The notes under the pieces: generated by a model
What the model saw: the letters and a program-made list of their open reading frames with translations, nothing else
Database searches by the model: none
Told to the model about the DNA's origin: nothing
Source of the DNA: Corallium rubrum
Lineage: Eukaryota; Cnidaria; Anthozoa; Scleralcyonacea; Coralliidae
Direction: 5' to 3'
Length of the DNA stretch: 64,000 nucleotides
NCBI GenBank assembly: GCA_964035015.1
Contig: OZ036002.1
Location: 742,501-806,500, forward strand
Position numbers and translations under genes: made by a program
Shown here: positions 4,719 to 58,734 of the stretch, in pieces
Numbering within the stretch: the first letter of the stretch is position 1
How the letters are laid out: each line of letters begins with the position of its first letter

Positions 4719-5922
4719 GTGATAGCGGGTGTTGAGGGTGTCAAGTGTCGGGCCTTACTTGACACCGGGGCGGGCAGTTCATATGCTGCAGCAGCACTCC
4801 TGGACGAGCTGACCAAGCGCGAAAGTAGAAGAGAAACAAGGACAGTCGAAATGATGCTGGGAACGACTACAAGGAAAATGGAGATACAAACCATCAACAT
4901 CAAGGGGACTTCAGGACAATTTTCAATGTCTGTGGAAGTGACAAAGGTTGAGAAGGGAGAACTTGTATCTCTAGATAACCCAAGATATCCTGAGCTAATT
5001 GGGAGTAATCCACATCTCGAGGGAGTTGTGATGAGGATACTGACACCAAAGAACGCCTCCTATAGCACACCTTATTTTGGGTGCAAGCGAGTACGCCAAG
5101 CTGAAGACAAACACTCCACCTAAAATTGGAACACCCGGGCAGCCGGTTGCTGAACTAACCCGCTTTGGGTGGACAATCATGTCACCAGGGAAAGAGTGCC
5201 TTAACGTGACCAACATGCTACTGACACAAACTTCACATGTCGAGTATGAAGAGCTATGCCGTATGGATGTCCTGAGATTAGAAGACAGACCAACCAATGA
5301 TCAAAGTGGAGTTTATGAGGAGTTTAAGGAGCAGCTTGTGCGGAATGAAGAGGGGTGGTATGAAATAGGACTACCTTGGCGTGGTAACCACCCACCCTTG
5401 CCCAGCAACAAGAATGGTAGCCTTCGCAGACTACAAAGTTTAACCCGGAAACTGGAACGCCAACAGCTAACAACCAAGTATAAAGAAATAATTGAAGACC
5501 AGAGAGATGCAGGTATAATCGAGACCGCTGACCAACCTGCATTTGGAACCGAATTCTACATCCCACACAAACCGGTGGTGCGTCCCAATGCAGAGTCAAC
5601 TAAAGTTCGAGTAGTTTTCGACGTCTCAGCTCAAGCATATGATGGAGCCCCATCCCTGAATGAATGTTTAAATACAGGGCCCCCACTGCAAAACAAATTA
5701 TGGAATGTCTTGGTTAGGGGTCGCTTCTACCCTGTGGCTCTGAGTGGTGATCTCCAAAAGGCCTTTTTACAAGTGCGAATAAAGGCTGATGACCGTGATG
5801 CATTACGCTTTCATTGGAAAGAAAGCGGACAGTCGGAACTAGAGACCTTACGATACACTAGGGCTCTCTTTGGTTTAACAGCATCCCCGTTCTCCTTGGT
5901 GGAGTCATCGAGACTCGTCTAG
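4719..5922 (+). pseudogene. pol: BEL/Pao pol: aspartic protease and 5' reverse transcriptase
   Basis: The protease segment carries the catalytic LLDTGAGSS loop near 4757-4783. A disturbed stretch around 5030-5077 needs two frame changes before the conserved LGASEYAK region. From 5077 the RT frame is open for about 280 codons. It has the BEL/Pao order of motifs: FYIPHKPV, VVFDVSA, SLNECLNTGP, then the SGDLQKAFLQ block holding the first catalytic Asp, and LFGLTASPF. One missing base near 5890 then throws the frame into a stop at 5920-5922. The YVDD box lies just beyond in another frame. This is the catalytic polymerase of the retrotransposon, inactive here. Confidence 0.85.
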
Positions 5923-5953
5923 CTACCTGGGAAGAGTGTGAACCAGAGACGGT

Positions 5954-7130
5954 TGCTTAGCTTAAACGTGAAATGTATGTGGACGATCTTATTTCGGGGT
6001 CAGCAACGGTGAAGGAAGCATTCGAGCTCAAAGAGAATGTATCAAAGATATTCCAAGATGCAAGTTTCCAGCTTCACAAGTGGCCCTCTAATGCTCCGGA
6101 GCTCGAATCAGACCAAGGTGTGGTGGAGGAACCTACTTACGCCAGGCAACACTTGAAGCAACACGGGGAAGAATCCAGCCTTCTTGGATTGGAATGGCAC
6201 AAAGAGCGTGACACGTTAAGCATCGTCGTTTCAAAAGACGAAGCAGTGGCAATAAAGCGCGGTGTTTTATCCAAATTGGCAAAGATATATGATCCATTGG
6301 GTGTCGTCTCTCCAGCAACGTTTCGGGGGAAACTTCTCTATCGAGCTGTTTGCGACGCAAAGAAGAACTGGGACGAGCCAATTCCAGACCCACTCCGTAG
6401 ACAGTGGACAAAGTGGGAAAGCGAGTTTCCTAACAAGGTGGAATTTCCAAGATCGTTGACCACTCATCGGGAACCAATCGACAGCATAGATCTACATTCC
6501 TTTGGCGACCCTAGTGGTAGTGGTGTTTCTGCATGTGTGTATGCGGTGGTTCGCCAACCCTCCGGTATCAACCAAGGGCTGGTAGCAGCAAGATCTCGCT
6601 TGGCTAAACCAGAGCTGACAATCCCAAGACTGGAGTTGGTCGCTGCCCATATGACCGTTAATCTTGTCGAAAATGTCAGAGAAGCGTTGACTGGATTTCC
6701 GTTGAAGAGCATTACGTGCTGGTCGGACAGTTCTGTGGTTTTATACTGGCTACAAGGAACTGAAACCTACAAACAATTCGTTGCGAATAGAGTGAAGAAA
6801 ATCCAAAGTCACAAAGGGATGAAATGGCGACATGTAACAACAGCTGAAAACCCTGCTGATATTGGTAGTCGTGGAGATCAGTTTAGCCGAGATGAGCTGT
6901 GGTGGAAAGGTCCCGGATGGCTTCAGAATGCAGACCAGTGGCCACCAAATATTGTAACCAAGTCATCTGACGAGAGTAGAGTCGAAGCTAAACCTGTGCA
7001 AGATATGGTAAATATCGCTGTAAATCAACCTAACGAGATTGACAAGCTGCTGGAGAAATTCAACTTGCAAAAAGCTATTCGAATATGTTCGTGGATTTAC
7101 AGATTTGTGAACAATGCACTACCAAACTGA
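5954..7130 (+). pseudogene. pol: BEL/Pao pol: RT palm (YVDD) and RNase H
   Basis: An in-frame stop precedes the segment at about 5957-5959. It then reads MYVDDLISGS, the RT catalytic box, from 5973, followed by the thumb/connection and the BEL/Pao-specific block ending in KIYDPLGVVSPATF. The RNase H region is marked by the DPS near 6510, the TIPRLELVAA motif and SDSSVVLYWLQ. The last part (WRHVTTAENPADIGSRG) is the usual BEL/Pao RNase H tail. A single in-frame TGA at 7128-7130 separates it from the integrase, which continues in the same frame. The reading is otherwise long and undamaged. Confidence 0.87.
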
Positions 7131-8558
7131 AGGTCCGAGTGCATCACAGGACCGTTGACCACGAAAGAAACGGATCGTCAAAGAGCATTTTGGATCCGGC
7201 TGGCCCAAGAAAGTCGTGGAGTCGAAGATGATTATGTACAACTGAATCTACAGCCGAATGAAGCTGGCATTCTGGAATGCCATGGCCGTATACAAGGCGA
7301 GAAACCAATATACGTCCCTGACAGTCATATCCTAGCTCAGAAAATCGTGGAAGAAGCCCATGCGCTTACCTTACATGGTGGTATTGGTTTGACAATGACT
7401 CAAGTGCGCAAGAAATATTGGATACCCCGGTTGAGGCGACTGGTCAGAAAGGTTAGGAAGAGTTGCGATGGATGCAAGAGATTCACAGTATCAGCATGTG
7501 CAACACCAAAGACAGGTGTTTTGCCTACCACGCGCACCCAAGGGATCAATCCGTACCAGGTGATTGGAGTAGATTATGCTGGTCCTATACGGTACAACAA
7601 AGGAAAGGGTCGAGAGGGGAAGTCGTATGTGTTACTATATGCTTGCAGTCTAACAAGAGGCATTTATATAGACCTCTTGCCCAGTTTGGAACTTAAAGAG
7701 TTCATTGTGAGCCTGAAGCGATTCATTGCACGTCGAGGCCGACCGGGGAGAGTTTATTCAGATAATGGAGGAACGTTCATCGGCGCGGCGAAATGGATGA
7801 GAGCTGTTTCGAAAGATGAGAAGATTCAGAACTTCTTATCTGTACACCAGATAACCTGGCAGTTCAACCTGAGCCGCGCCCCTTGGTGGGGCGGCCAATT
7901 TGAACGAATGATTGGTCTAGTTAAAGTTGCCTTGAATAAGACCATTGGAAATGGGTTTCTAAATTGGAAGGAGCTCGAAGAAGTGCTTTTGGACGTTGAG
8001 ATCGCGTTGAACAACCGACCTTTGGGATATGTGGAGGACGATGTTCAACTCCCCATTCTAACACCGAATAGTATGCTATTCCTGAACAGCAACATCATGC
8101 CAGAACTTCAACCTCATCGAATCGAAGACAACGATCTAAGAAGAAGGGCGAAGCACCTATTAAAATGCAAGGAAGCCATGTGGAAACGCTGGAGCCAAGA
8201 ATACTTACGCAGTTTGAGAGAAAAGCATCGAAACCTAGCTGGGTCGAAAGGAACAGTGCCTGCTGTTGGAGACGTGGTAGTCCTTAGAACCGATGAAAGG
8301 AATCGTGGGAAATGGCCGCTCGGGGTCATTGAAGAGCTGATTGCGGGAAAGGATGGTGTAGTCAGGGGAGCGAAAGTCCGTACTGGCAAGTCACAGTTGG
8401 AACGAGCAGTTCAGCACTTATTTCCGTTGGAACTATCGTGTGATCGCAAGAAGAAACCAATCAAGCTTAATCCGGAAGCAGAAACCTTTCGACCAAAGAG
8501 ACAGGCAGCAATTGCTGCAAGTCAGAGAATTCGGGAGATTGTAGAAGACGAGGACTGA
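7131..8558 (+). pseudogene. pol: BEL/Pao integrase domain with C-terminal DUF5641-like region
   Basis: This is the downstream part of the same polyprotein frame after the TGA at 7128-7130. It contains an H2C2 integrase zinc-binding motif (HALTLHGG followed by CDGCKRF) and an RNase H-fold integrase core. The catalytic acidic residues lie in GVDYAGPI, YSDNGGTF and GGQFERMIG (DDE). The C-terminal region VGDVVVLRTDERNRGKWP is the beta-rich domain characteristic of BEL/Pao integrases. It would insert the cDNA into host DNA. About 467 codons are open, so this domain is the best preserved part of the element. Confidence 0.88.
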
Positions 8559-39265: not shown

Positions 39266-39502
39266 CTAATAACGCCAGACGATTTTATTCACCTCTGGGG
39301 AAGCCCTCGCAACCATATGTGTACTGTTACATAAATATTCTTTTTTCCTACGATAAGTACATGTCAGTGGTCGCTACCATTAGCAGTAGGACAAAAATGC
39401 CGCCATTTTGAAAGTGAAAATGGGGACATATTTTTGGCCAGCACCCGCAGTCCAGTTATATATATACGTCAGTGCCACTGATATATTTATCGCAACTTTG
39501 TT

Positions 39503-40345
39503 AGTAGTATAGGATATGGGGGTACCAGGCCAGTTTATTTTGGGTGCTACGACAGGGATATCTCTCCTCCCCGAGGCGTGGACGAGATTTTTGTCCACTC
39601 CCAGGGATGTTTTTTGTTGACCGCATGCACCACTTTTTTCCATACCCCGGTACCATCACTTTTTCCATACCCCGGTACCACCACTTTTATTCTGAGTCGT
39701 CAACACCATCGCTGAGTACCTTGGAAGTTGTTAGCCCTGCCGTTGGCCCCAGCCGTTGGCCTCAGTGGTTGGCCCTACTTGCCCCATCAGCGCGACCACT
39801 GGAACCACGGCATAGAACCACGGCTTGGCTATACGGGTGGTTATAGTTAATGGACCATCTGTTTTTACCCCCAACTCGCCGGACCAGTCGGTTGCCGCCA
39901 GGAATCCAAAACCCAGGAATACAAATGGCCCAACCTATATGAAATTATTTTTCCATGCAACATAAAGTTTACATTAGGTACGGTGGAAAAGACCACAGCG
40001 ACCAAGTCGTTTGGCGATGGTCCCGAGCTTATGCTAAGAAGGACGCCCCCTTACTTCTTGGAGTCACCAAGGTCAGGTCATCCGTATGGTCATGTTACCT
40101 AGCACCACACAACAGCCCCGAACAGAGGCGACCTGGAGTCCAGGCGGCCACACCGAGCCGAAGGCGAGGTGTTGGGCCGCAATCATACCAGGAGTCACCA
40201 GTGTAAAGTCTATTGTGAGTCAGATAAAACCTTCCAACAAATGGACCAGTTTATTTTGCCCCCAACTCGCCAGACCAGTCGGTTGCCACCGATCTTCCAA
40301 AATATAAGTCTTCACAGAATCCAAGTCAGATCCTATTAAGTAGTC
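39503..40345 (+). repeat. Polinton left terminal inverted repeat (843 bp)
   Basis: It matches 57733-58575 in reverse complement with about five substitutions. It contains short tandem pairs (CCATACCCCGGTACCA; CCGTTGGC words) and no convincing gene. The 83-codon frame at 39955-40206 exists in both TIRs, but most of the TIR differences change its residues, which argues against coding. Confidence 0.96.
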
Positions 40346-40500
40346 AGTGACGTGTACACATTTGTGAGGTAGTCAGTGAAGTGTACATATTTTGTGTTGA
40401 GGTCAGTGAGGTGTGTGTATTTTGTGTTGGAGTCAGTGAAGTGTGCATATTTTGTGTCCGCTTCACTGACTCCAACACAAATGTGAAAAATTTTGTGAAG
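40346..40500. repeat. Subterminal tandem repeats inside Polinton
   Basis: About four units contain GTCAGTGAAGTGTACATATT-like words spaced about 37-39 bp, ending with an inverted copy (CTTCACTGACTCCAACAC). They lie between the left TIR and the polymerase stop. They may be protein-binding or replication sites, which is speculation. Confidence 0.7.
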
Positions 40501-44160: not shown

Positions 44161-44221
44161 ACTATATCTGTATATTTTTTATTAAATAATTTAAACGCAC
44201 TATATCTTCTATAGTAATTAT
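44161..44221. promoter_or_regulatory. Divergent promoter between polymerase and small + ORF
   Basis: This 61-bp AT-rich spacer contains TTTAAACGCAC (44190-44200), shared with 45179-45189, and TATAGT words next to both start codons. Confidence 0.5.
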
Positions 44222-44392
44222 ATGGAAGATGTAGTATTTGCTAGAATCTTAAGGATCCGTAAGCAAGTAGAAAAACTAGTAGATGAAGTTTTTAACTTAA
44301 TTGAGTTGGAGAGGGAGTTGGTGGGTAGGTATATTAACCTTCTGAAGCATAGGAGATCCTGTGGAAGTGCCTGCAGTGACTACCAAGAGTGA
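44222..44392 (+). CDS. Small 56-aa protein, MED-type ORF 1
   Basis: An ATG preceded by TATAGTAATT opens 56 codons. The product is a charged, helix-rich peptide starting MEDVVFARI with many Leu/Lys/Glu residues and a Cys pair near the end (RSCGSACS). I do not recognise a family. It runs divergently from the polymerase, and its 3' end overlaps the 3' end of the BRO/VRR-NUC gene by 59 bp. A second ORF with the same MED start, size class and relation to the next nuclease gene lies at 45339-45542. This suggests a duplicated small-protein/nuclease pair. It may also be a chance frame; the positional parallel is the main support. Confidence 0.45.
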   Translation: MEDVVFARILRIRKQVEKLVDEVFNLIELERELVGRYINLLKHRRSCGSACSDYQE

Positions 44393-45149
44393 CCTTATTA
44401 AGGAACTTTCTTCTGCAGTACCTACACCTAACTCTGGCCCCTGCCATGTAATCATCAATACACCTATGTATCTCATCATAGTCACATGAGACTATGGTCC
44501 TATATCCATTATCGCTCAGGGTATCTATGAATGACCTCTGCCTGTCTGAACAGACTCCCGTACCGTTAGGGGTCTTAAGCTCAATAGCTAGACCGGAGTA
44601 TGTCTTGTGTAGGTTACCTATAATTATATCAGGCTGACCACCCTTATATCCCTTTTTCCAGCTGGTTATTCTTTTTAACTTAGTGTCCTGATTCTCTCCT
44701 AGGCCTGGTATGACCACAGCGTTAGGATGGTACTCTCTTATATACCTGATTACCTGGTAATGTAGGTCAGTCTCATTCATCAGTGACAGCTGTTTACCAA
44801 TAAGCCTAGGTGCTATGTACTGTCCAGTTTTCCTTATGGATGGTAGAACATCTCTGAACACCCAGTTCCTAAACCTCCTAGCTATAGGTAATTTTGATGA
44901 GAACACCAGACTATATACTCCAGGCTCATTTATCATGTGTATTTCTCTCCTCTGACCTGACGCCCCGTTTTGGGGCCTCAGGTATTGTGTTACCTTTTTC
45001 TTACAATCGACATCAACATGATCCTGGATTGCCTTACGAGGCCTCTTGTACCCAAGTGCTTCCGCGACATCTTTTCCCCGGAACCATATCTCATCACCAT
45101 CCTTTTGCGTTCTGATTATTTTATCGTCGAAACTGAATGACTTGATCAT
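44334..45149 (-). CDS. BRO-N / VRR-NUC nuclease / zinc finger fusion
   Basis: This 271-residue protein has three parts. Residues about 18-110 form a BRO-N domain (IWFRGKDVAEALGY, then EPGVYSLVFSSKLPIARRF and WVFRDVLPSIRKTG), a DNA-binding module common in insect viruses, large DNA viruses and phages. Residues about 128-235 form a VRR-NUC PD-(D/E)XK nuclease with GGQPDIII (Asp174), LAIELKTP (Glu190, Lys192), Gln204 and a TIVSCDYDE ending; all catalytic positions are present. Residues 242-263 form a C2H2-like finger (CRYC...HCRHFH). Such nucleases resolve or cut branched DNA; a role in element replication or in competition with other DNA is an inference. TATAGT precedes the ATG. Confidence 0.9.
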   Translation of the reverse strand: MIKSFSFDDKIIRTQKDGDEIWFRGKDVAEALGYKRPRKAIQDHVDVDCKKKVTQYLRPQNGASGQRREIHMINEPGVYSLVFSSKLPIARRFRNWVFRDVLPSIRKTGQYIAPRLIGKQLSLMNETDLHYQVIRYIREYHPNAVVIPGLGENQDTKLKRITSWKKGYKGGQPDIIIGNLHKTYSGLAIELKTPNGTGVCSDRQRSFIDTLSDNGYRTIVSCDYDEIHRCIDDYMAGARVRCRYCRRKFLNKVTLGSHCRHFHRISYASEG

Positions 45150-45338
45150 ACTATAGGTATATATATTTATAAAACTTATTTAAACGCACCTGGCGCCTTG
45201 TTTTAGGGGTGACGGTAGCAGCAACCAGTCAAAACGGTGGGTTGGTCAGAAGTGATGCTAGAGGGAAATACGGTGAAACGGGGCGTCAGGTGTGTTTAAA
45301 TGGGCTCACCATCAGAGTTTATTTTCTACATTTACTAT
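45150..45338. promoter_or_regulatory. Symmetric divergent promoter region
   Basis: The arms TTTAAACGCACCTGGCGCC (45179-45197) and GGGGCGTCAGGTGTGTTTAA (about 45279-45298) form an imperfect inverted pair about 110 bp across. It lies between the minus-strand nuclease gene and the plus-strand small ORF. The shared TTTAAACGCAC word also lies before the polymerase. Confidence 0.55.
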
Positions 45339-45542
45339 ATGGAGGACATAGAGCATGATATAGGAAATCTGGTTGATAAAATATGTGAGTCGGAGGGGAA
45401 GGTACCTGACAGAGAAATAGATAGAATGATGAGAGAGTTAATAGATCTTAATAGTCTTTACACAAGGCTAGGACGTAAAAAATCTAAACATAAAAAAACC
45501 CAGGTTTACTCACCCAGGTACCAACCCTATATAGGAAAGTAG
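45339..45542 (+). CDS. Small 67-aa protein, MED-type ORF 2
   Basis: The ATG at 45339 is preferred over 45300 because it follows TTTACTATAT and gives the same MED start as the ORF at 44222. The product is acidic and helical at first (MEDIEHDIGNLVDKI), then strongly basic (RLGRKKSKHKK), a pattern compatible with nucleic-acid or protein binding. It is unrecognised. It is convergent with the degenerate VRR-NUC gene, whose extended frame ends 6 bp away at 45548. A longer form from 45300 (80 codons) is possible. Confidence 0.5.
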   Translation: MEDIEHDIGNLVDKICESEGKVPDREIDRMMRELIDLNSLYTRLGRKKSKHKKTQVYSPRYQPYIGK

Positions 45543-46354: not shown

Positions 46355-46867
46355 TTAAGTGCCCTTCCACTTCAGGAACATAGGACATCTGCAATCAATG
46401 TCCCAACCCAGCTCCCTATATACAGATCCGAACAACCTATCATCAAACATGTTCTTACTATATCCATCACACATGTCACTGACTTCTATGAGTAGCGTTA
46501 GTCCTCTGCGACTGGCCAACCTTATTATATAGTAGTTATACCTACTTACATTTTTTCCTATCAGGTTAAGTCTCATCAGAACTGACACGACCTTTATGAA
46601 ATCAGCTGTTAACATTCTTTCATCAGAACTATTAACAACCCCTGCTATCCTTCTAGCAAACCACTTACTTCTCTTATGAACAGTCTTCCTCTTGCTCCAT
46701 GACATTAGATCCAACTCTGGTACAGGCACTGTGAAAGGCCCTTGTAGGCCACATGACGTACAGGTTGGGAAACCATGACAGTTTATACGTTGACCGCCAC
46801 AGCCGCATGTGTACATCTCATCAATTTTCCTGAATCTCCGCTCCACATAGTCCTCCCTCTTACCCAT
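46355..46867 (-). CDS. Zinc-ribbon protein, possible late transcription factor relative
   Basis: This 170-residue protein begins with a basic stretch and a Cys/His cluster (CGCGG...CTSCG; Cys21, Cys23, Cys36, Cys39) typical of a zinc ribbon. The rest is helical, with SKRKTVHKRSKWFARRIAG and NYYIIRLASRRGL. The layout of an N-terminal ribbon plus a helical domain with KR-x(3)-HK...NYY...RL faintly recalls VLTF3-like late transcription factors of large DNA viruses. That resemblance is by eye and weak. It would fit a regulator placed between the replication and virion gene groups. The start codon is followed by GKRE and preceded by CTATAAT. Confidence 0.55.
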   Translation of the reverse strand: MGKREDYVERRFRKIDEMYTCGCGGQRINCHGFPTCTSCGLQGPFTVPVPELDLMSWSKRKTVHKRSKWFARRIAGVVNSSDERMLTADFIKVVSVLMRLNLIGKNVSRYNYYIIRLASRRGLTLLIEVSDMCDGYSKNMFDDRLFGSVYRELGWDIDCRCPMFLKWKGT

Positions 46868-50743: not shown

Positions 50744-52225
50744 ATGGACAATGACATAGAATTGGAACAGGGGCTGAGAGATATATACTATAACCCAGCA
50801 ACTGGTTACCAGTCAGCTGAGAGACTTTACCAGAAATCATTAGGGACTTTAAGCAAGCACAACGACTACGACTACGGCAACGTGTTTGAACAATAGAATT
50901 TCATGTCATATACAAAGAGCTTTTGCAAATGACGGTCCCAAGAGTAATTTTCATGCCGTCGCGACTCTGTTGACAACGTAGAAAAATCATTTTTACGTTG
51001 TAAAGACAACGCGGAACCTGAGTCACTACAGAAGCCTTGGAAAGGCTTAACCTTACTCTCGCGAATAACAGATTGAACAAGTGTTTTTCTTCAAGAGTTT
51101 AAGAACAAAACGAGCCTGTGCGATTACGTATCTTGAAATTTGGATGTATAAAAACACCGCCATTTAATACCACTCTAAAACTTTCCACCGTAGCCGTAGT
51201 CCGTTGTCTGAAGCTTAAAGTCCCTATTGGCTGATGGACTACCGGGTGTGAGTAGGAAGAAGGTCACTGAGTGGTTGAGATCGCAGGACACTTTTACACG
51301 GTATAGGAAAATAGTTAGAAAGCATAAGTTCAGACAGACTAGGGTTTACTACCTAGGTGAGCAGCTACAGATGGATCTTGTTGATATGGGTAAGTATGGG
51401 AATAAGAACGGGGGATACCGTTGGATACTGACAGCTGTTGAAATTCTAAGTAGATATGCCTTTGCAATCCCTGTGTATAGGAAAGACACCGGAAACATGA
51501 CCAAGGCGGTAACGTTGTTGCTTAATAAATTTAAGAAGCGTTTTGGAGCGGATCCAGAACTGGTGCAGTTTGATGATGGTAGGGAATTTTACAATGTTGG
51601 GGTGAGGTCCTTACTGGAGGGAGCTGGTGCTAAGTACTTTAGCACTCTATCAGATAAGAAGGCTGCTGTTGTGGAACGGTTCAACAGAACCCTAAAGACG
51701 GCTATGTGGAAGTACTTTTACAGTAAGGGAACATATAAGTGGACTGATGTTCTAGACTCGCTGGTTAGTAATTACAATAACAGTAAGCATAGAACTATAC
51801 TGATGAAGCCGGCTAATGTGAATAAAAGTAATGAGGCTGAAGTGTGGAACACCTTATTTGGCCACACCTTTGGAGAATACCCTCTAGCTAAATTTAAAGT
51901 TGGTGATACTGTCAGGATAAGTAAGTACAAAAGCATATTCACTAAGGGCTATGAGGCTAACTTCACAGAGGAACTATTCAAGGTGACTAAGGTGATTAGG
52001 GGTGATCCGAATGTTTATGAAATAGAGGACTTAGAGGGTGAGCCAGTAATTGGGAAGTTTTATGAGGAGGAGCTAAGTGCTGTTGTTAAGAAGGATCATG
52101 TTTACAGGGTGGAGAAAGTACTGAAAAGGAAAAGGAAAAAGAAAATGGCCCTGGTGAAGTGGCTCGGGTATGATAGCAAGCATAATAGCTGGATACCTGA
52201 TAGTGATATCCATAATATTGGTTAG
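50744..52225 (+). pseudogene. INT: Integrase (RVE type with chromodomain), interrupted by MITE
   Basis: The N-terminal part starts at ATG 50744 and runs 32 codons before the MITE at 50842-51225; a readthrough frame ends at TAG 50894-50896. The remaining about 332 codons (from 51227) are open to 52225 and in the same register as the N-terminal part once the insert and one TSD copy are discounted. The core has Asp in LQMDLVDM, Asp in VQFDDGREF and Glu in VVERFNRTLK (DDE), as in retroviral and Polinton integrases. The C-terminus has an SH3-like part (FKVGDTVRIS) and a chromodomain (YRVEKVLKRKRKKK, then VKWLGYDSKHNSWIP). An internal start could still give a protein lacking the N-terminal zinc-binding segment. 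Confidence 0.93.
50842..51225. mobile_element. 384-bp MITE inserted in Polinton integrase
   Basis: Termini AGGGACTTTAAGC and GCTTAAAGTCCCT are followed by subterminal inverted words (ACTACGACTACGGC and GTAGCCGTAGT). ATT lies on both sides (50839-50841, 51226-51228), a 3-bp target duplication. Its removal with one ATT restores the integrase frame, which fixes the boundaries. A central hairpin ACAACGTAGAAAAATC...TTTTTACGTTGT is present. Superfamily is not determined. Confidence 0.9.
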
Positions 52226-52232
52226 TGTATAG

Positions 52233-53699
52233 ATGGCTGAAGGTGGTGACGTATTTGACGACTTTGAAATGAAAAACAGATACCCTGGATATGATGAAAT
52301 GGATGATGACCAGTTGGAGTTAGAATACTCTAACCTGTTAAGTCAGGGTGATAATGGTTCAGGCAAATCTGAGAGGATCACATATGTTAGAGATCTTATA
52401 GCCAGAAGAGGATTAGAGTATGATGATTCATTCTTAGACTTAGATGATGGTAAAACGGTTACTATTAAAAACGCTAATGGCTCCACCATAGAAGTACCAG
52501 GTGTTGAATTCATCCTTAACCCACAGGATGATCAGAGCAATTTCACCCGTATTAATGATGAGGTATATAGTGTACTTGACGAGACACTTGGTGACGATGA
52601 AAGCATACTCAACGAAAGTAAGTACGATGAGGTTATGGAAAGACTTAAAAACGTTAAGTCGAAGAATAAAGCTAATATTGGCAATCAACTTGAAAGGGTT
52701 GTAGCTGTGACGAAAATAGTTCAAGTTAAAAACAAAGTCAACCTAAACCCAAAAAACCGGATAGCACAGGAGATACTGGACAGATCAATTATTATTCAAC
52801 GAAAAGACGGAGAAGATACATTATGGTTTAAACCTAAATTAAAAAGCGGAAGGTTATCAGGCAGAGCAGTACAGATTATGAAACGTGGTAAAACAAAAGT
52901 CCCACAGTACTCGACAGCTATTGGGTCGGAAAATGCTGTTGGCCAGTATAAAAAGCTAATTAGCGATTACAGAAAAGACATAGGGTATAGGAAAGTCCAT
53001 TTTGTAGAAACTGAACCAGAGGACTACCCAGTGGTTGATATACAAGCCAACTCTAATAACTACGTAGATATACCTGGACTGACTACTAGAGAAAATTGTG
53101 AAATGAGAGGTGTACTGAACCCATCATCCGCCATGGACCCAAACTCAAGGGTAGGTGATCAGGGAGCCTTACAGCTCCAGGCGAACTACTTTGATGAAGC
53201 AGCAGCTGAAACGGAGGAACAGATGACTTCAGAAAATGAAGATAACAGAGAACTGGCAGAAAGAATAGAAGGACTAAGAAAGGCTCAAGATCTTGTGTTA
53301 GAGCAGAGACAACTGGAAGAGACAAGGGAGCAGCAGGAGGAATACATATCCAGGCTAGAGAGATTCAAAGAGTGGATGAAGGAGAACTGGCTTGGTGCCA
53401 CATCACTTGCTGTTGGCCTGGCTAGCATTCTGACGACTGTGATCATAGGGTTGCGTCACAATATTAAAAGGGGTTCTAACGCTGTCGGGTCATTCGGACG
53501 GTCGGTCTATAACGCCTTTAGGAATCTGACAAAGAAACTCGGCCCAGTGTTAGGTCCTATTATCATGGCGGTTGGTAACCTTATAGTTGCTCTGCTAAAG
53601 TATGGTGCCATGGGGTTGGCTTGGTTGGCTAGCAATCTGTGGGTGTTGGTTATAGCGATTGTGTGGATGGTTTATGACAGGTATGGTAAAAGTAAATAA
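52233..53699 (+). CDS. 488-aa coiled-coil multi-TM Polinton protein
   Basis: An acidic N-terminal region (EMDDDQLELEYSNLL; DDSFLDLDDGKTV) is followed by a basic central domain and a long coiled coil (about residues 335-375, rich in Glu/Gln/Arg). Several hydrophobic segments at about 388-410 and 437-482 form a membrane anchor. It starts 7 bp after the integrase stop with TTAGTGTATAG before the ATG. I do not recognise a known domain. A proline/glycine-rich TM end and an elongated soluble part suggest a virion membrane or vertex protein. The frame is intact. Confidence 0.7.
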   Translation: MAEGGDVFDDFEMKNRYPGYDEMDDDQLELEYSNLLSQGDNGSGKSERITYVRDLIARRGLEYDDSFLDLDDGKTVTIKNANGSTIEVPGVEFILNPQDDQSNFTRINDEVYSVLDETLGDDESILNESKYDEVMERLKNVKSKNKANIGNQLERVVAVTKIVQVKNKVNLNPKNRIAQEILDRSIIIQRKDGEDTLWFKPKLKSGRLSGRAVQIMKRGKTKVPQYSTAIGSENAVGQYKKLISDYRKDIGYRKVHFVETEPEDYPVVDIQANSNNYVDIPGLTTRENCEMRGVLNPSSAMDPNSRVGDQGALQLQANYFDEAAAETEEQMTSENEDNRELAERIEGLRKAQDLVLEQRQLEETREQQEEYISRLERFKEWMKENWLGATSLAVGLASILTTVIIGLRHNIKRGSNAVGSFGRSVYNAFRNLTKKLGPVLGPIIMAVGNLIVALLKYGAMGLAWLASNLWVLVIAIVWMVYDRYGKSK

Positions 53700-53714
53700 G
53701 ATATAACTTAGTCT

Positions 53715-54950
53715 ATGTTGCAGGAAGATAGAATCAATCCGAGCTACAAACTAAAGAGACCAGACAGTAGTAAGAAAGGAACTAGGAGAGTAGTCGATGT
53801 GACATTCAACCCAACACATATATCCTCTGGTCAGGACCTGTATGTAAAGCTATCGACATTACCGGTTAATCATGTGTTAATCCCTGGGAGTAGAATGCTT
53901 ACTTTCAGCCTTAAGAATGGTAATAAGGAGTCATACCATCAGAACAATCTAAAGTCCACTCTTTTTAAACAAATCACCCATATGTTCAATGGAGAAAAAT
54001 ACAGAGATCTGAATGAGGCTCATGTTCTCAGGTGCTATGAGGACCTTTGGTCTAAGTCAAAGCGGGTTGGAAAAATTGATCAGGGTCTTGGTGGGAGTGT
54101 GAATCTTGCTAAGCTAAGGAGTCAGGATGCAAGTGGTGATAACAGTGTTGCTGGTGATGTTCTCATGAATAGCATCTACGGTGACAGGTTCACAGTTCCT
54201 ATCGATGATGACTGGCTTACTGAAAATGGGGCTGTCTACCCCCACGCGCTTCAGAATACACACGAGACTATACTGAAAATTAACAGTCCGGGTAATGTGT
54301 TACTACCCGGTGGTAGTGGTAAGGCTGTGCCAGGTAGCTTTAAACTGGATAACCTAAAGTTGAGGTATGAGACAGTTGAGAATGAGATTCTGGCTAGTGA
54401 GACCGAGGGAATCTATAGCAGAGGGAAATCTTCCTACTACAGTCACGCCACCCTGGTTAAAACCTTCCCAGTTTCTGCTGCTACTACAAAAATCCATGAA
54501 AATGTGAACCTACCAAGGAAGTCTCTAAGAAACATCGTAATGATCTTCAAAAGAACCACTGATGGAAGTGAGTCGTTCTACTACCCAGCTATTGAGAGTG
54601 TCAAAATAAGTTTCCAGGGTCAACCAAATTTCCTGTACACACAGTCGATGAAGAAGTACGATTTCTTTAATGAGGCTAGCCGGGTGTTCTTCCCATGTGA
54701 TGACAAGTCTGACAGAAATGTTAGTGAAGCGAATTTCTACAACGATAAGTTCGCCTTGGTCTGTGACTTTTCAACAACGGCGCTAAAGAGGGTACAGGGC
54801 CAGGGTGTAAAGCTGACTGACACACAAAACGGAATACTTATCGAGGTTGATAAAAGTGCTGGGACCACTGCCTGTACCTGCTACCTGTACGTTCTGTCTG
54901 ATGGGCTAATAAACCTGGCTAATGGACAGCTTCAGTCTATTCAGTATTAG
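53715..54950 (+). CDS. MCP: Probable major capsid protein (double jelly-roll)
   Basis: This 411-residue protein is beta-rich with no TM or enzymatic motif. Segments such as MLTFSLKNGN, MFNGEKYRDLNEAHVLRCYE, AIESVKISFQGQPNFLY and a C-terminal YLYVLSDGLINLANGQ resemble the strand-loop pattern of Polinton and adintovirus capsid proteins, including the closing LY-x-x-L-x-DG strand. It sits immediately before the packaging ATPase (3-bp gap), the usual neighbour of the MCP. It is somewhat shorter than many Polinton MCPs. It would form the trimeric capsomers of an icosahedral shell. Assignment is by size, context and pattern. Confidence 0.7.
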   Translation: MLQEDRINPSYKLKRPDSSKKGTRRVVDVTFNPTHISSGQDLYVKLSTLPVNHVLIPGSRMLTFSLKNGNKESYHQNNLKSTLFKQITHMFNGEKYRDLNEAHVLRCYEDLWSKSKRVGKIDQGLGGSVNLAKLRSQDASGDNSVAGDVLMNSIYGDRFTVPIDDDWLTENGAVYPHALQNTHETILKINSPGNVLLPGGSGKAVPGSFKLDNLKLRYETVENEILASETEGIYSRGKSSYYSHATLVKTFPVSAATTKIHENVNLPRKSLRNIVMIFKRTTDGSESFYYPAIESVKISFQGQPNFLYTQSMKKYDFFNEASRVFFPCDDKSDRNVSEANFYNDKFALVCDFSTTALKRVQGQGVKLTDTQNGILIEVDKSAGTTACTCYLYVLSDGLINLANGQLQSIQY

Positions 54951-54953
54951 TGT

Positions 54954-55550
54954 ATGGATCAGCCGGAGACTATTCTGATAGTTGGGCCATCTGGATGTGG
55001 TAAAACTTACACATTGCTTAACGAAATACTTTCTGTGGAGTATGGGAAGTATTTTGACTTCATCATAATACTCTGTCCCACACTGTGGATAAATATGACA
55101 TACCTAGACTGGAGATATCTTAATAGCGACCCTGATGTCATAGGACTTAGCATAAGTCCAGATAGACTAGACCCTGTTATTGAGGCAGTAGTAAAAATTT
55201 ACTCTGGATCTAAGACTGCTGTAATAGTTGATGACATGAGTAACACAGGTGATCAACATCTTAACGACGGCATGCTGGCTTTTTTATCATATAGTGGTAG
55301 GCATCATAATATCACATTGTTCATTCTCACTCAGAAGCTGAATAGTGTCGCGACTGGTATAAGGGACAATACCACTAGACTGTTATTTTTCAGCACACAT
55401 AACAGGAGAAGTATGAAGGTGTTGAGGGATGAGTTCTTCGGACATATAGCAGACGCTGAAATGGAGAAGTCTATCATTGCGCATCTTGCCACTGGTAAAT
55501 ACCTTGACATTAAACTCAGTGCGCAGCCACCGACCTATGAAGTTAAATGA
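54954..55550 (+). CDS. ATP: Packaging ATPase (FtsK/HerA, A32-like)
   Basis: This 198-residue P-loop ATPase has Walker A GPSGCGKT (11-18), Walker B AVIVDDM (89-95) and a downstream LFILTQ strand (sensor-like) near 126. Arg residues in DNTTRLLFF may serve as the arginine finger. Size and motifs are those of the A32-like genome-packaging ATPases of Polintons and related DNA viruses, which drive DNA into the capsid. The ATG overlaps the TAGTGTATG context. The frame is intact. Confidence 0.93.
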   Translation: MDQPETILIVGPSGCGKTYTLLNEILSVEYGKYFDFIIILCPTLWINMTYLDWRYLNSDPDVIGLSISPDRLDPVIEAVVKIYSGSKTAVIVDDMSNTGDQHLNDGMLAFLSYSGRHHNITLFILTQKLNSVATGIRDNTTRLLFFSTHNRRSMKVLRDEFFGHIADAEMEKSIIAHLATGKYLDIKLSAQPPTYEVK

Positions 55551-55565
55551 AACATAACCTAATGT

Positions 55566-56117
55566 ATGCCAAAGAGGGAAGGTAAGCGCAGTAAAAATGA
55601 GCCAGTTGTTATTGAAGATGAGGCTATTGAAAAACTAGTTGATGAGCTACAGGTTGCGGAAGAGAGTATTGCTAAAACTGTGAGCACTGAGGAACCTAGC
55701 ATAGACACCAGGCGCGAGGAACTTATAACTGCATCTGATGATGGGTACATTACCCAGAAGTCCGGACATATAAGAAAATGTAGTGAAAAGACATTAGACA
55801 AAATTTACAAGGCTTATGAAGCTAAAAGGAAGAAGGACGCAGACGGGTTCCTAACAGATTTACTAATAAGTCAGTTCTCAACAATGCTTGGTGGTCTTGA
55901 CGCAATTGAGGATCCTGTTGCGCTGACAGATAAACTTAAGAATAATGGTATACTGAGAAAAGATGTTGAGAGTATTATATCAGTAGTTAGCCCATACATA
56001 CCCCTTATAGGGTTACTCGGAGGTGTCGCCATAACTGGTAAGCACATATACCAGCATAAGACCAAACTGGTGGAGAATAGTATACAACCTATGGTATATG
56101 AACAAGACCCTAAGTAG
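55566..56117 (+). CDS. 183-aa single-TM coiled-coil protein
   Basis: It has a highly charged N-terminus (MPKREGKRSKNEP), coiled-coil segments (about 18-40 and 66-92), one TM segment (about 140-158, YIPLIGLLGGVAI) and a short tail. It overlaps the next gene by 20 bp in another frame. Unrecognised; likely a virion-associated membrane protein. Confidence 0.68.
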   Translation: MPKREGKRSKNEPVVIEDEAIEKLVDELQVAEESIAKTVSTEEPSIDTRREELITASDDGYITQKSGHIRKCSEKTLDKIYKAYEAKRKKDADGFLTDLLISQFSTMLGGLDAIEDPVALTDKLKNNGILRKDVESIISVVSPYIPLIGLLGGVAITGKHIYQHKTKLVENSIQPMVYEQDPK

Positions 56118-57558
56118 ATTCTTCGCTAAGTACCCATATGCTGACAAAAGCAAGTTTATAACTGAATCAGTTTTTGGTAAGACAGAACCTGGCGTGTTCT
56201 TCGGACCCGTCGGCGTCGATGCTACGTACATCTACACCGAGGACCGGGAATTCAAGAGCAATGAGAACTACACCAAGTACCTCACAATAGATAAGCCACC
56301 ACCAAAGTTCCCAAAAATATGGTTAGGTGGTGGTACCGTGCAGAAGGTTCAGGGAAAAAGACACTGGGAGAAGGACATTGAGGGAAAACACGACTTCTCA
56401 AAGTTTACATACCTGTCTGAGAACGTTATAGACTACAGCCTTAACAATTTCAGGGTTTATGTTAATGACCACGACTTCTTCATGTCTAAGTTACCTGTCC
56501 TAAGTCCCGGTAATAGGACTGATATAGCAGTATGGTGGAATAACGGCGAACCTTACTACCAGCTAATCTTTGCCGTCTACCTAAGTACGTACTGCTGTGG
56601 TGTCGGGGTTGAGCATCTAAAGTTCTCCGATGATGTTTATCCAGTGATTACATCTATTATGCGCTTCCATGTGTACTTCACTACCCGACGTATACTAAGG
56701 CGTCTTATAAAGGAGAAGAAAAGTGACCTAATGAGGGAATTTGGTGCTGGTAAGGATGTAATCGACAACATGTCAAATATACCTAGAGAGAAAAAGTTCC
56801 TTATTAACCCACATTCTGGTCAGCATCATGACCGCGCATTTAAGGAGTGGATGTGGAGACTTAACCCTGATTATAAAACACACTACAGAAGGTTCATACC
56901 ACTTAAGACAGATGGTTTTACCAGGATAGGGCTCCAATATCTAAACGAGTCTATCGAGGCTTATGTCTATGCAGTGCTAGGCTCACAAGCTAAAACAAGG
57001 GTAAGTATCGTTAAGAAGGGTGCCGGAAGTCTGGAGTCACAACAGGAATTCAGAGTCCTCGTAAACGACGCCGTCGTTAACTACTCTGTTAGCACTTGGA
57101 TTCTGAATATGAACAGATCAATATCAGATACTAACGTAACCCAGAACTTGGCCATAAGTCCTGACACATGGTTAGTGCCAGGGTCACTCACAATACTGAA
57201 GACAAAAATTATCGGATATAACAACTTACTCAAACACGCGTCTGATGCTATGAAATTTGGTATTAACTCTAAAGTAAACTACCAGCAGCAGGTTGTCCAT
57301 AGGCAACCAAAGAAGGTACACCAGGAATATGTACCACATCTGGAAACATTAGATGAGGAACCAGACAAGAAGGAAAATTCTCCAAACATAGGTTTCCATA
57401 AATCTACGGAACCACAAGCAAAGGAAAATTCTCCACATATAGGTTTCCATACATCTACGGAACCACAAGCACCTGTCACACAGAAAAACAATGAGCTGGG
57501 GATTATCTTGGTTTCAACAGCTGTGGCTGGGTATCTGTTTAGTAAAAACGTCCTGTAG
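56098..57558 (+). CDS. 486-aa tail-anchored Polinton structural protein
   Basis: The last gene of the + block. The main domain (about 1-400) is rich in aromatic and basic residues, with no motif I can assign; regions such as MSKLPVLSPGNRTDI and SVSTWILNMNRSIS are beta-like. A Pro/Gln/Lys-rich linker follows, with a 17-residue direct duplication of the type KENSPxIGFHxSTEPQA (about 423-455). A single C-terminal TM (466-482) ends the protein, giving a tail anchor. Polintons usually carry one or two such large conserved proteins of unknown role. It ends 174 bp before the right TIR. Confidence 0.7.
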   Translation: MNKTLSRFFAKYPYADKSKFITESVFGKTEPGVFFGPVGVDATYIYTEDREFKSNENYTKYLTIDKPPPKFPKIWLGGGTVQKVQGKRHWEKDIEGKHDFSKFTYLSENVIDYSLNNFRVYVNDHDFFMSKLPVLSPGNRTDIAVWWNNGEPYYQLIFAVYLSTYCCGVGVEHLKFSDDVYPVITSIMRFHVYFTTRRILRRLIKEKKSDLMREFGAGKDVIDNMSNIPREKKFLINPHSGQHHDRAFKEWMWRLNPDYKTHYRRFIPLKTDGFTRIGLQYLNESIEAYVYAVLGSQAKTRVSIVKKGAGSLESQQEFRVLVNDAVVNYSVSTWILNMNRSISDTNVTQNLAISPDTWLVPGSLTILKTKIIGYNNLLKHASDAMKFGINSKVNYQQQVVHRQPKKVHQEYVPHLETLDEEPDKKENSPNIGFHKSTEPQAKENSPHIGFHTSTEPQAPVTQKNNELGIILVSTAVAGYLFSKNVL

Positions 57559-57732: not shown

Positions 57733-58575
57733 GACTACTTAATAGGATCTGACTTGGATTCTGTGAAGACTTATATTTTGGAAGATCGGTGGCAACCGAC
57801 TGGTCTGGCGAGTTGGGGGCAAAATAAACTGGTCCATTTGTTGGAAGGTTTTATCTGACTCACAATAGACTTTACACTGGTGACTCCTGGTATGATTGCG
57901 GCCCAACACCTCGCCTTCGGCTCGGTGTGGCCGCCTGGACTCCAGGTTGCCGCTGTTCGGGGCTGTTGTGTGGTGCTAGGTAACATGACCATACGGATGA
58001 CTTGACCTTGGTGACTCCAAGAAGTAAGGGGGCGTCCTTCTTATCATAAGCTCGGGACCATCGCCAAACGACTTGGTCGCTGTTGTCTTTTCCACCGTAC
58101 CTAATGTAAACTTTATGTTGCATGGAAAAATAATTTCATATAGGTTGGGCCATTTGTATTCCTGGGTTTTGGATTCCTGGCGGCAACCGACTGGTCCGGC
58201 GAGTTGGGGGTAAAAACAGATGGTCCATTAACTATAACCACCCGTATAGCCAAGCCGTGGTTCTATGCCGTGGTTCCAGTGGTCGCGCTGATGGGGCAAG
58301 TAGGGCCAACCACTGAGGCCAACGGCTGGGGCCAACGGCAGGGCTAACAACTTCCAAGGTACTCAGCGATGGTGTTGACGACTCAGAATAAAAGTGGTGG
58401 TACCGGGGTATGGAAAAAGTGATGGTACCGGGGTATGGAAAAAAGTGGTGCATGCGGTCAACAAAAAACATCCCTGGGAGTGGACAAAAATCTCGTCCAC
58501 GCCTCGGGGAGGAGAGATATCCCTGTCGTAGCACCCAAAATAAACTGGCCTGGTACCCCCATATCCTATACTACT
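57733..58575 (-). repeat. Polinton right terminal inverted repeat (843 bp)
   Basis: Reverse complement of 39503-40345. Its outer end is ACTACT, so read inward from the right it begins AGTAGTATAGG. TTTGTT follows at 58576-58581. Confidence 0.96.
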
Positions 58576-58734
58576 TTTGTTAATATTGTTTTCGATATTT
58601 ATGTAAATCAAAGGCGATTTTTGTCACTTTACATGCATGGTTGGTCATTGTTAATTGTGGAACCAAGACTGCAAAGGCGTACTGAATTATTTGTCTGACT
58701 AAGTAATTTCGAGTTTGTATAGACAAAATATCAG

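Follow-up and report, generated by a model that had tools for sequence, protein, structure and literature searches.

A Corallium rubrum Polinton encodes a Bro-N/VRR-NUC/finger fusion protein beside PolB, together with a predicted inactive VRR-NUC twin

A 64-kb stretch of the Corallium rubrum genome (contig OZ036002.1, positions 742,501 to 806,500; hereafter the window) contains a complete Polinton of 19,073 bp. One of its genes encodes a fusion of a Bro-N domain, a VRR-NUC nuclease domain and a C2H2 finger. This gene lies directly upstream of the DNA polymerase gene PolB, and is accompanied by a second VRR-NUC gene (the twin) whose product lacks the catalytic glutamate and is predicted to be dead. 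We propose that the fusion protein is a homodimeric endonuclease of Holliday-junction type belonging to the replication module, made together with PolB and tuned by the dead twin; we give this reading a probability of roughly one half (0.48). A nuclease preserved intact in many copies, next to a fast-changing look-alike without the catalytic residue, suggests that DNA cutting is controlled or contested at some stage of the element's life. The paired dead nuclease, which Pfam misses, may help to explain how virus-like elements in a common nucleus keep branched DNA or one another in check, and both proteins are small enough to be assayed with ordinary oligonucleotide substrates.

The gene occupies exactly the span given in an earlier prediction made from the DNA letters alone (the original prediction), on the minus strand. 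A Pfam search with its 271-residue product found both main domains above the curated cut-offs: Bro-N (PF02498) at residues 12-103 (E=5.4e-27, 94.7 bits for a cut-off of 25.6) and VRR_NUC (PF08774) at residues 165-220 (E=8.6e-7, 29.5 bits for a cut-off of 23.8). The finger stayed below the Pfam cut-off in the window protein (zf-C2H2_4, E=0.69) and was recognized by its conserved Cys/Cys/His/His residues. Conservation was assayed in a database set of 121 proteins (the query and 120 listed of 3173 matches) and in 89 intact copies from the own genome, which were picked by open frame and not by residues. In the database set, C242, C245 and H258 are kept in 120 proteins and H263 in 118; in the own genome, C242 is kept in 88 copies and the other three residues in all 89. 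As for the active site, D174, E190, K192 and Q204 are present in 121/121 database proteins, E126 in 119 and P173 in 118. The window protein has all five residues E126, D174, E190, K192 and Q204, as does each of the 89 genomic copies, and P173 is found in 84 of them. The three-part architecture and the full catalytic set announced by the original prediction are therefore borne out.

Its assignment of the gene to a Polinton also held. The element is bounded by 843-bp terminal inverted repeats (TIRs) that match at 838 of 843 positions (5 mismatches) and both start with AG, and the 6-bp target duplication TTTGTT is present at both ends, as in Polinton/Maverick elements. Between the repeats lie the genes for a Polinton-type PolB (pPolB), an rve integrase and an A32/FtsK-type ATPase. 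In a PolB homology search, 7994 of the 7995 scored candidates matched, these being only part of a larger candidate set; among the 120 matches listed, the sole named protein was the PolB of 'Corynactis coral adintovirus' (69%). Pfam also detected an Endonuclease_7-like zinc site at PolB residues 460-508, which we take as an ordinary polymerase zinc site because most of the 120 listed relatives carry it. Judged by the identity of its TIRs, the element is complete and was probably inserted recently.

The window copy is far from alone. In the same assembly (474 Mb, 312 contigs), the fusion gene gave 149 matches that merge to at least 142 genes, the window copy included; 142 of 399 first-look candidates were scored, so that the gene count is a lower bound. 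Eighty-nine of the 142 are full-length and stop-free, 18 are full-length with a stop and 35 are partial or fragmented. The median pairwise ratio of nonsynonymous to synonymous divergence (dN/dS) of the 89 copies is 0.220 (3624 of 3916 pairs, with dS between 0.1 and 1.0), with 0.295 for Bro-N, 0.130 for the linker, 0.155 for the nuclease and 0.190 for the finger. The gene was found directly upstream of PolB, on the same strand, in 37 of 39 scored PolB copies, with a median gap of 180 bp. These 39 copies, scored from 1434 first-look candidates, belong to a close lineage (identity 90-100%), so this adjacency says nothing about other Polintons. The fusion gene also lies within 25 kb of 127 of the 150 ATPase copies scored (from 684 candidates), 122 times in divergent orientation, where chance would give about 1.6%. 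It is thus close to standard for this Polinton lineage. Singular capture by one Polinton, implied when the original prediction knew of no standard Polinton gene with this architecture, is ruled out by the genome-wide copies, the adjacency to PolB and the large size of the protein family. A misassembled or decaying gene is likewise ruled out by the TIRs with their target duplication and by the 89 intact, constrained copies.

PolB and the fusion gene share an upstream box. Their 70-nt upstream regions are identical at 30 of 40 aligned nucleotides, a value never reached in 300 shuffle sets (best of 91 gene pairs in each; largest 26), and the next best real gene pair in the window reached 24 nt. 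The sequence GTGCGTTTAAA is exact in front of both genes in the window. With at most one mismatch, 63 of the 89 copies have it within the 120 nt preceding the fusion gene, 75 within the 300 nt after that gene, at the PolB start, and 53 at both places; one mononucleotide shuffle of each copy gave 0. A 16-nt inverted repeat (44955/45276) was discarded as a regulatory element, as at least one such repeat occurred in 3 of 20 shuffles.

The structure of the fusion protein was predicted as a monomer. The model displays the VRR-NUC fold, and its nearest fold is that of stand-alone VRR-NUC proteins rather than that of FAN1, whose VRR-NUC domain belongs to the same nuclease superfamily. Indeed, the two-helix insertion of FAN1 is absent from the model, and the stretch between strands 1 and 2 measures 26 residues in 211/211 aligned proteins. 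The stand-alone resolvases psNUC, stNUC and saNUC of bacteria and phages (PDB 4qbl, 4qbn, 4qbo) have the same fold and the same E-PD-ExK-Q site; as described in passages of PMC4103454, they are single-domain proteins, whereas the window fusion adds Bro-N and the finger. The same passages present stand-alone VRR-Nuc proteins as dimers cutting four-way junctions, and FAN1 as a monomer cutting flaps. Since the nearest fold is that of stand-alone proteins whose known members are junction-cutting dimers, 'resolvase', one of the functions suggested by the original prediction, would be the best fit, judging from the model and by analogy. In a BFVD structure search the best TMq was 0.39 among the 50 rows listed, and therefore no full-length match was obtained there.

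The twin is the next open reading frame (ORF) of at least 100 residues upstream of the fusion gene on the same strand. It resembles the fusion nuclease by BLASTP (E=5e-12, 32% over 105 residues), and a profile of 11 twin proteins matched the fusion family with an hhalign probability of 98.3% (E=2e-14). Pfam VRR_NUC gave no match to the window twin or to four counterparts up to E=1. We compared 20 elements, drawn from the 39 with a scored PolB and having both PolB and the fusion gene open; a nuclease-matching ORF is present at the twin position in all of them. This ORF spans 236-307 aa in 16 elements (2 extend beyond the fetched stretch) and is shorter or split in 4, the window's included. The 170-aa window twin is thus a shortened form, and longer open copies exist. 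In 15 of 20 elements, a single twin ORF gives two nuclease-like matches; the second match of the window copy is only a fragment. Tryptophan replaces the catalytic glutamate in the first twin domain of all 20 elements, and in 18 of the 19 second domains that reach this place; the exception is a glycine at the very end of a shortened ORF. Before sorting, 38 of 43 pattern matches had tryptophan; four of the 43 were judged by eye to fall elsewhere in the proteins. By homology the twins belong with the VRR-NUC nucleases, and they lack the catalytic glutamate; judging from their sequences, they are dead VRR-NUC paralogs, usually with two domains in tandem. A genome-wide search scored 150 places, some of them the fusion genes themselves, and a twin place lies at most 3.5 kb upstream of 85 of the 89 intact fusion genes. 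The twin gave no match in phage records, and a PDB sequence search with one counterpart found nothing. A lone-sequence structure model of the twin had a confidence score (pLDDT) of 42 and was not used.

The genes of the module differ strongly in diversity. In the same 19 elements, median pairwise dS is 0.226 for the ATPase, 0.354 for PolB and 0.586 for the fusion gene; it is 0.255 for a further ORF (46355-46867; 20 elements) and 1.23 for the twin (18 elements), the last value being only rough because it is near saturation and the alignment is gappy. The corresponding dN/dS values are 0.061, 0.086, 0.219, 0.138 and 0.534, and the median protein identities (19 elements) 0.97, 0.94, 0.79, 0.93 and 0.38. 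None of the other four genes varies as much as the twin, whose pairwise identities go down to 0.20. The dS of the fusion gene exceeds that of PolB in 181 of 190 pairs; it is highest, at 0.82, in residues 1-60, the remaining blocks having 0.50-0.64. Between elements, the dS values of the 5' and 3' halves of PolB are uncorrelated (r=0.05, 19 elements), which points to heavy recombination between the Polintons of this genome. The diversity peak is therefore read as a mark of the locus and not of whole-element divergence. A correlation of r=0.17 between PolB and fusion dS was rejected as a sign of special allele swapping, since the PolB halves correlate no better. Nor do Bro-N and the nuclease travel as one unit inside this genome (r=-0.01, 19 elements), where recombination is heavy. 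The correlation between twin and fusion alleles is weak (r=0.21; 8 of 1999 permutations gave as high a value), and so is that between twin and nuclease alleles (r=0.11, 289 of 1999; 19 elements in both cases), which would speak against a strict toxin-antidote pairing.

The scheme that we favor starts from what is directly established, namely the domains, the intact and constrained active site, the fixed adjacency to PolB in this lineage, the upstream box, and the existence and hypervariability of the twin. The fusion protein would be a homodimeric, structure-selective DNA endonuclease of Holliday-junction type, held on DNA by its Bro-N domain and finger, and its VRR-NUC domain would cleave branched intermediates that arise when the element replicates or recombines. 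The fusion protein would be produced together with PolB through a common type of promoter. The tandem dead twin might tune the nuclease by sitting, without cleaving, on the same branched DNA or on the dimer surface; it resembles a single-chain mimic of the dimer and might be a competitor for either the junctions or that surface. We infer the dimerization, the substrate, the timing of expression and any contact between fusion and twin. A branched-DNA nuclease of the replication module is suggested by the stand-alone type of fold devoid of the FAN1 insertion, and by the place and box beside PolB.

Several observations weigh against this scheme. Over the whole window the number of GTGCGTTTAAA matches is unremarkable (3 with at most one mismatch, equalled in 18 of 100 shuffles), and a fusion gene is missing from the 25 kb around 23 of the 150 ATPase copies scored. 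The faster evolution of Bro-N, with residues 46-75 most variable, exceeds what a plain housekeeping resolvase would need. In the model, the loop 149-165, which contains a short helix, has a pLDDT of about 50, and the whole-model confidence (pTM) is 0.51. Finally, other VRR-Nuc proteins cleave splayed arms, as an effector does in passages of PMC9635880, or flaps (PMC4103454), rather than junctions.

The same pair of genes could also serve in a conflict between elements, the fusion protein cutting competing Polintons or other DNA viruses within one nucleus, as the original prediction had considered for a weapon, and the hypervariable twin protecting its own element as immunity or decoy. A hypervariable dead paralog is a trace that such a conflict could leave: the twin varies more than any other gene compared, yet it keeps its tryptophan and its place near nearly all intact fusion genes, and fusion dS stands above PolB dS. 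Co-resident elements are likely to meet, because they recombine heavily. A DNA-binding domain joined to a nuclease has a precedent as a weapon in mobile-element conflict, the Odn protein of phage ICP1, which cuts the origin of a satellite according to passages of PMC8263062; Odn differs in combining a RepA_N-like domain with a GIY-YIG-type nuclease, and no homology to the fusion is claimed. The type VI secretion pair TseV3-TsiV3 likewise associates a VRR-Nuc enzyme with a cognate inhibitor, but TseV3 is a secreted bacterial effector and TsiV3 is not stated to be a VRR-Nuc paralog in the relevant passages of PMC9635880. The allele correlations of the twin with the fusion gene and with the nuclease are weaker than a tight toxin-antidote pair would be expected to show, the one relative with a readable gene context (L015, see below) combines the fusion gene with PolB in its 6.6 kb and lacks a separate twin there, and PADLOC gave no match of weight (best E=0.02). 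We consider this explanation, the chief rival of the favored scheme, unlikely. A two-gene Polinton module, in which the active fusion endonuclease beside PolB is joined by the tandem dead twin as antidote, decoy or single-chain pseudo-dimer in inter-element conflict, can be put forward only tentatively.

It is improbable that the protein is a site-specific endonuclease for the element's own movement, with Bro-N and the finger targeting a cut for integration, excision or homing. Bro-N is indeed the faster part of the protein, the finger is a possible second DNA-binding unit, and Haro et al. propose an integration or excision role in passages of PMC12721341. Nevertheless, the rve integrase and the 6-bp target duplication already account for integration, homing would scatter the gene whereas in the scored copies its position next to PolB is constant, and the VRR-NUC proteins treated in passages of PMC4103454 and PMC9635880 recognize structure, not sequence. 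A Bro/antirepressor-type transcription regulator with a secondary nuclease is very improbable. In PHROG, the N-terminal half matches antirepressors best, and several database relatives are named 'prophage antirepressor-like', but the nuclease has a low dN/dS and invariant catalytic residues, and 30 of the 90 additional relatives retain it without Bro-N.

Haro et al. (PMC12721341) described a Bro-N-VRR-NUC fusion in December 2025, in OmPLV, a polinton-like virus of Oxyrrhis marina, a dinoflagellate; in the passages concerned they call it not previously described. The bare fusion is therefore not new, and the original prediction's placing of it outside the standard Polinton genes is outdated, as it is also common in the present lineage; the new part is the dead twin beside the fusion gene. 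As presented in passages of the same paper, OmPLV resembles the window element in carrying the fusion in a Preplasmiviricota element with TIRs and pPolB. It differs in that rve integrase and target duplications were undetected and the fusion gene stands head-to-head with the ATPase, whereas the window element has an rve integrase, the TTTGTT duplication and a fusion gene directly upstream of PolB, as well as the finger and the dead twin, neither of which is mentioned in these passages of PMC12721341. Beyond this paper, searches of the open-licence literature listed no paper joining Polinton and VRR-NUC and no other account of the fusion, and it is not described in passages of PMC11464507, PMC10120064, PMC12220804 and PMC8715426. 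The open-licence literature yielded no mention of a dead VRR-NUC twin, no search having been aimed at it alone. One further paper, PMC4152171 on a bacterium, reportedly mentions Bro-N and VRR-NUC.

The fusion belongs to a large protein family, 3173 of 3733 candidates matching it at E<=1e-3; the coral Paramuricea clavata is among the named sources. Bro-N, all five active-site residues and the finger occur together in 115 of the 120 relatives listed; E126 is missing from 2 and the finger from 3, and D174, E190 and K192 are present in all 120. A search with the nuclease-finger part gave 101 proteins, 90 of them beyond these 120. Bro-N is present in 53 of the 90, partial in 7 and absent from 30; all have D-ExK, and only 17 have the four finger residues at the aligned places. 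When 123 of the 211 family sequences were scanned with Pfam (E<=0.01), 118 matched Bro-N, 80 VRR_NUC and 55 zf-C2H2. Across the wider family, Bro-N and the nuclease do travel as one unit (r=0.535, with 0 of 999 permutations as high, for 44 sequences retained from the 170 fused ones).

In IMG/VR, a single-sequence scan with the fusion and a scan with PolB confirmed no relative, and an alignment scan gave 14 loci matching nuclease residues 125-256 only, with a Bro-N match in none. Prokaryotic genomes yielded one relative, L015, a 6.6-kb contig filed under a bacterial metagenome-assembled genome (Candidatus Gastranaerophilales), which probably stems from another Polinton and was mis-binned. Its Polinton-type PolB is followed after about 2.1 kb by the fusion gene in the same orientation, each being split over more than one frame. 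Within this stretch, which ends about 230 bases past the fusion gene, twin proteins match (E<0.01) only inside the fusion nuclease, and so no separate twin is present there. Among phage records, 80% of the query was covered in two rows, which are two accessions of a single phage, and the one examined is a Bro-N/KilAC protein; phage antirepressors of this type (e.g. Lactobacillus phage Ldl1) share Bro-N with the fusion but carry a C-terminal ANT/KilAC domain instead of the nuclease. With the nuclease-finger part, 93 phage records matched and none covered 80%. Two plasmid rows covering 80% of the query are annotated 'phage antirepressor'.

Features of the Polinton and its fusion gene, in window positions.
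Feature	Position	Strand	Basis or remark
Left TIR	39503..40345	+	target duplication TTTGTT at 39497-39502, just before
PolB (Polinton-type pPolB), 1194 residues	40576..44160	-	homology
GTGCGTTTAAA box upstream of PolB	44190..44200	-	
Small ORF, 56 aa, putative coding	44222..44392	+	divergent from PolB; begins MED
Bro-N/VRR-NUC/C2H2 fusion protein, 271 aa	44334..45149	-	ORF, Pfam
C2H2 finger, residues 239-263	44361..44435	-	residue conservation; Pfam weak
VRR-NUC domain, residues 122-236; E126, PD173-174, E190xK192, Q204	44442..44786	-	
Bro-N domain, residues 12-103	44841..45116	-	Pfam
GTGCGTTTAAA box upstream of fusion gene	45179..45189	-	
Small ORF, 67 aa, putative coding	45339..45542	+	divergent from fusion gene; begins MED
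Predicted dead VRR-NUC paralog (catalytic E to W), 170 aa	45817..46329	-	BLASTP, hhalign
rve integrase with chromodomain	51227..52225	+	Pfam
A32-type packaging ATPase	54954..55550	+	Pox_A32, E=1.3e-8
Right TIR	57733..58575	-	target duplication TTTGTT at 58576-58581, just after

The ORFs at 52233-54950 and 55566-57558 gave no informative Pfam or NCBIfam match; they lie where the capsid and protease genes of a Polinton would be expected. The conserved ORF at 46355-46867 shows a weak match (E=0.053, below the cut-off) to VLTF3, a late transcription factor of poxviruses. Immediately internal to the left TIR, positions 40361-40485 hold a 30-nt direct repeat in three copies and a perfect hairpin of 21 nt, none being reported inside the right TIR; they look iteron-like and are a possible candidate for an origin or binding site. 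Elsewhere in the window, positions 5077-8558 contain pieces of a BEL/Pao-type retroelement (Peptidase_A17, DUF5641 and an integrase zinc domain).
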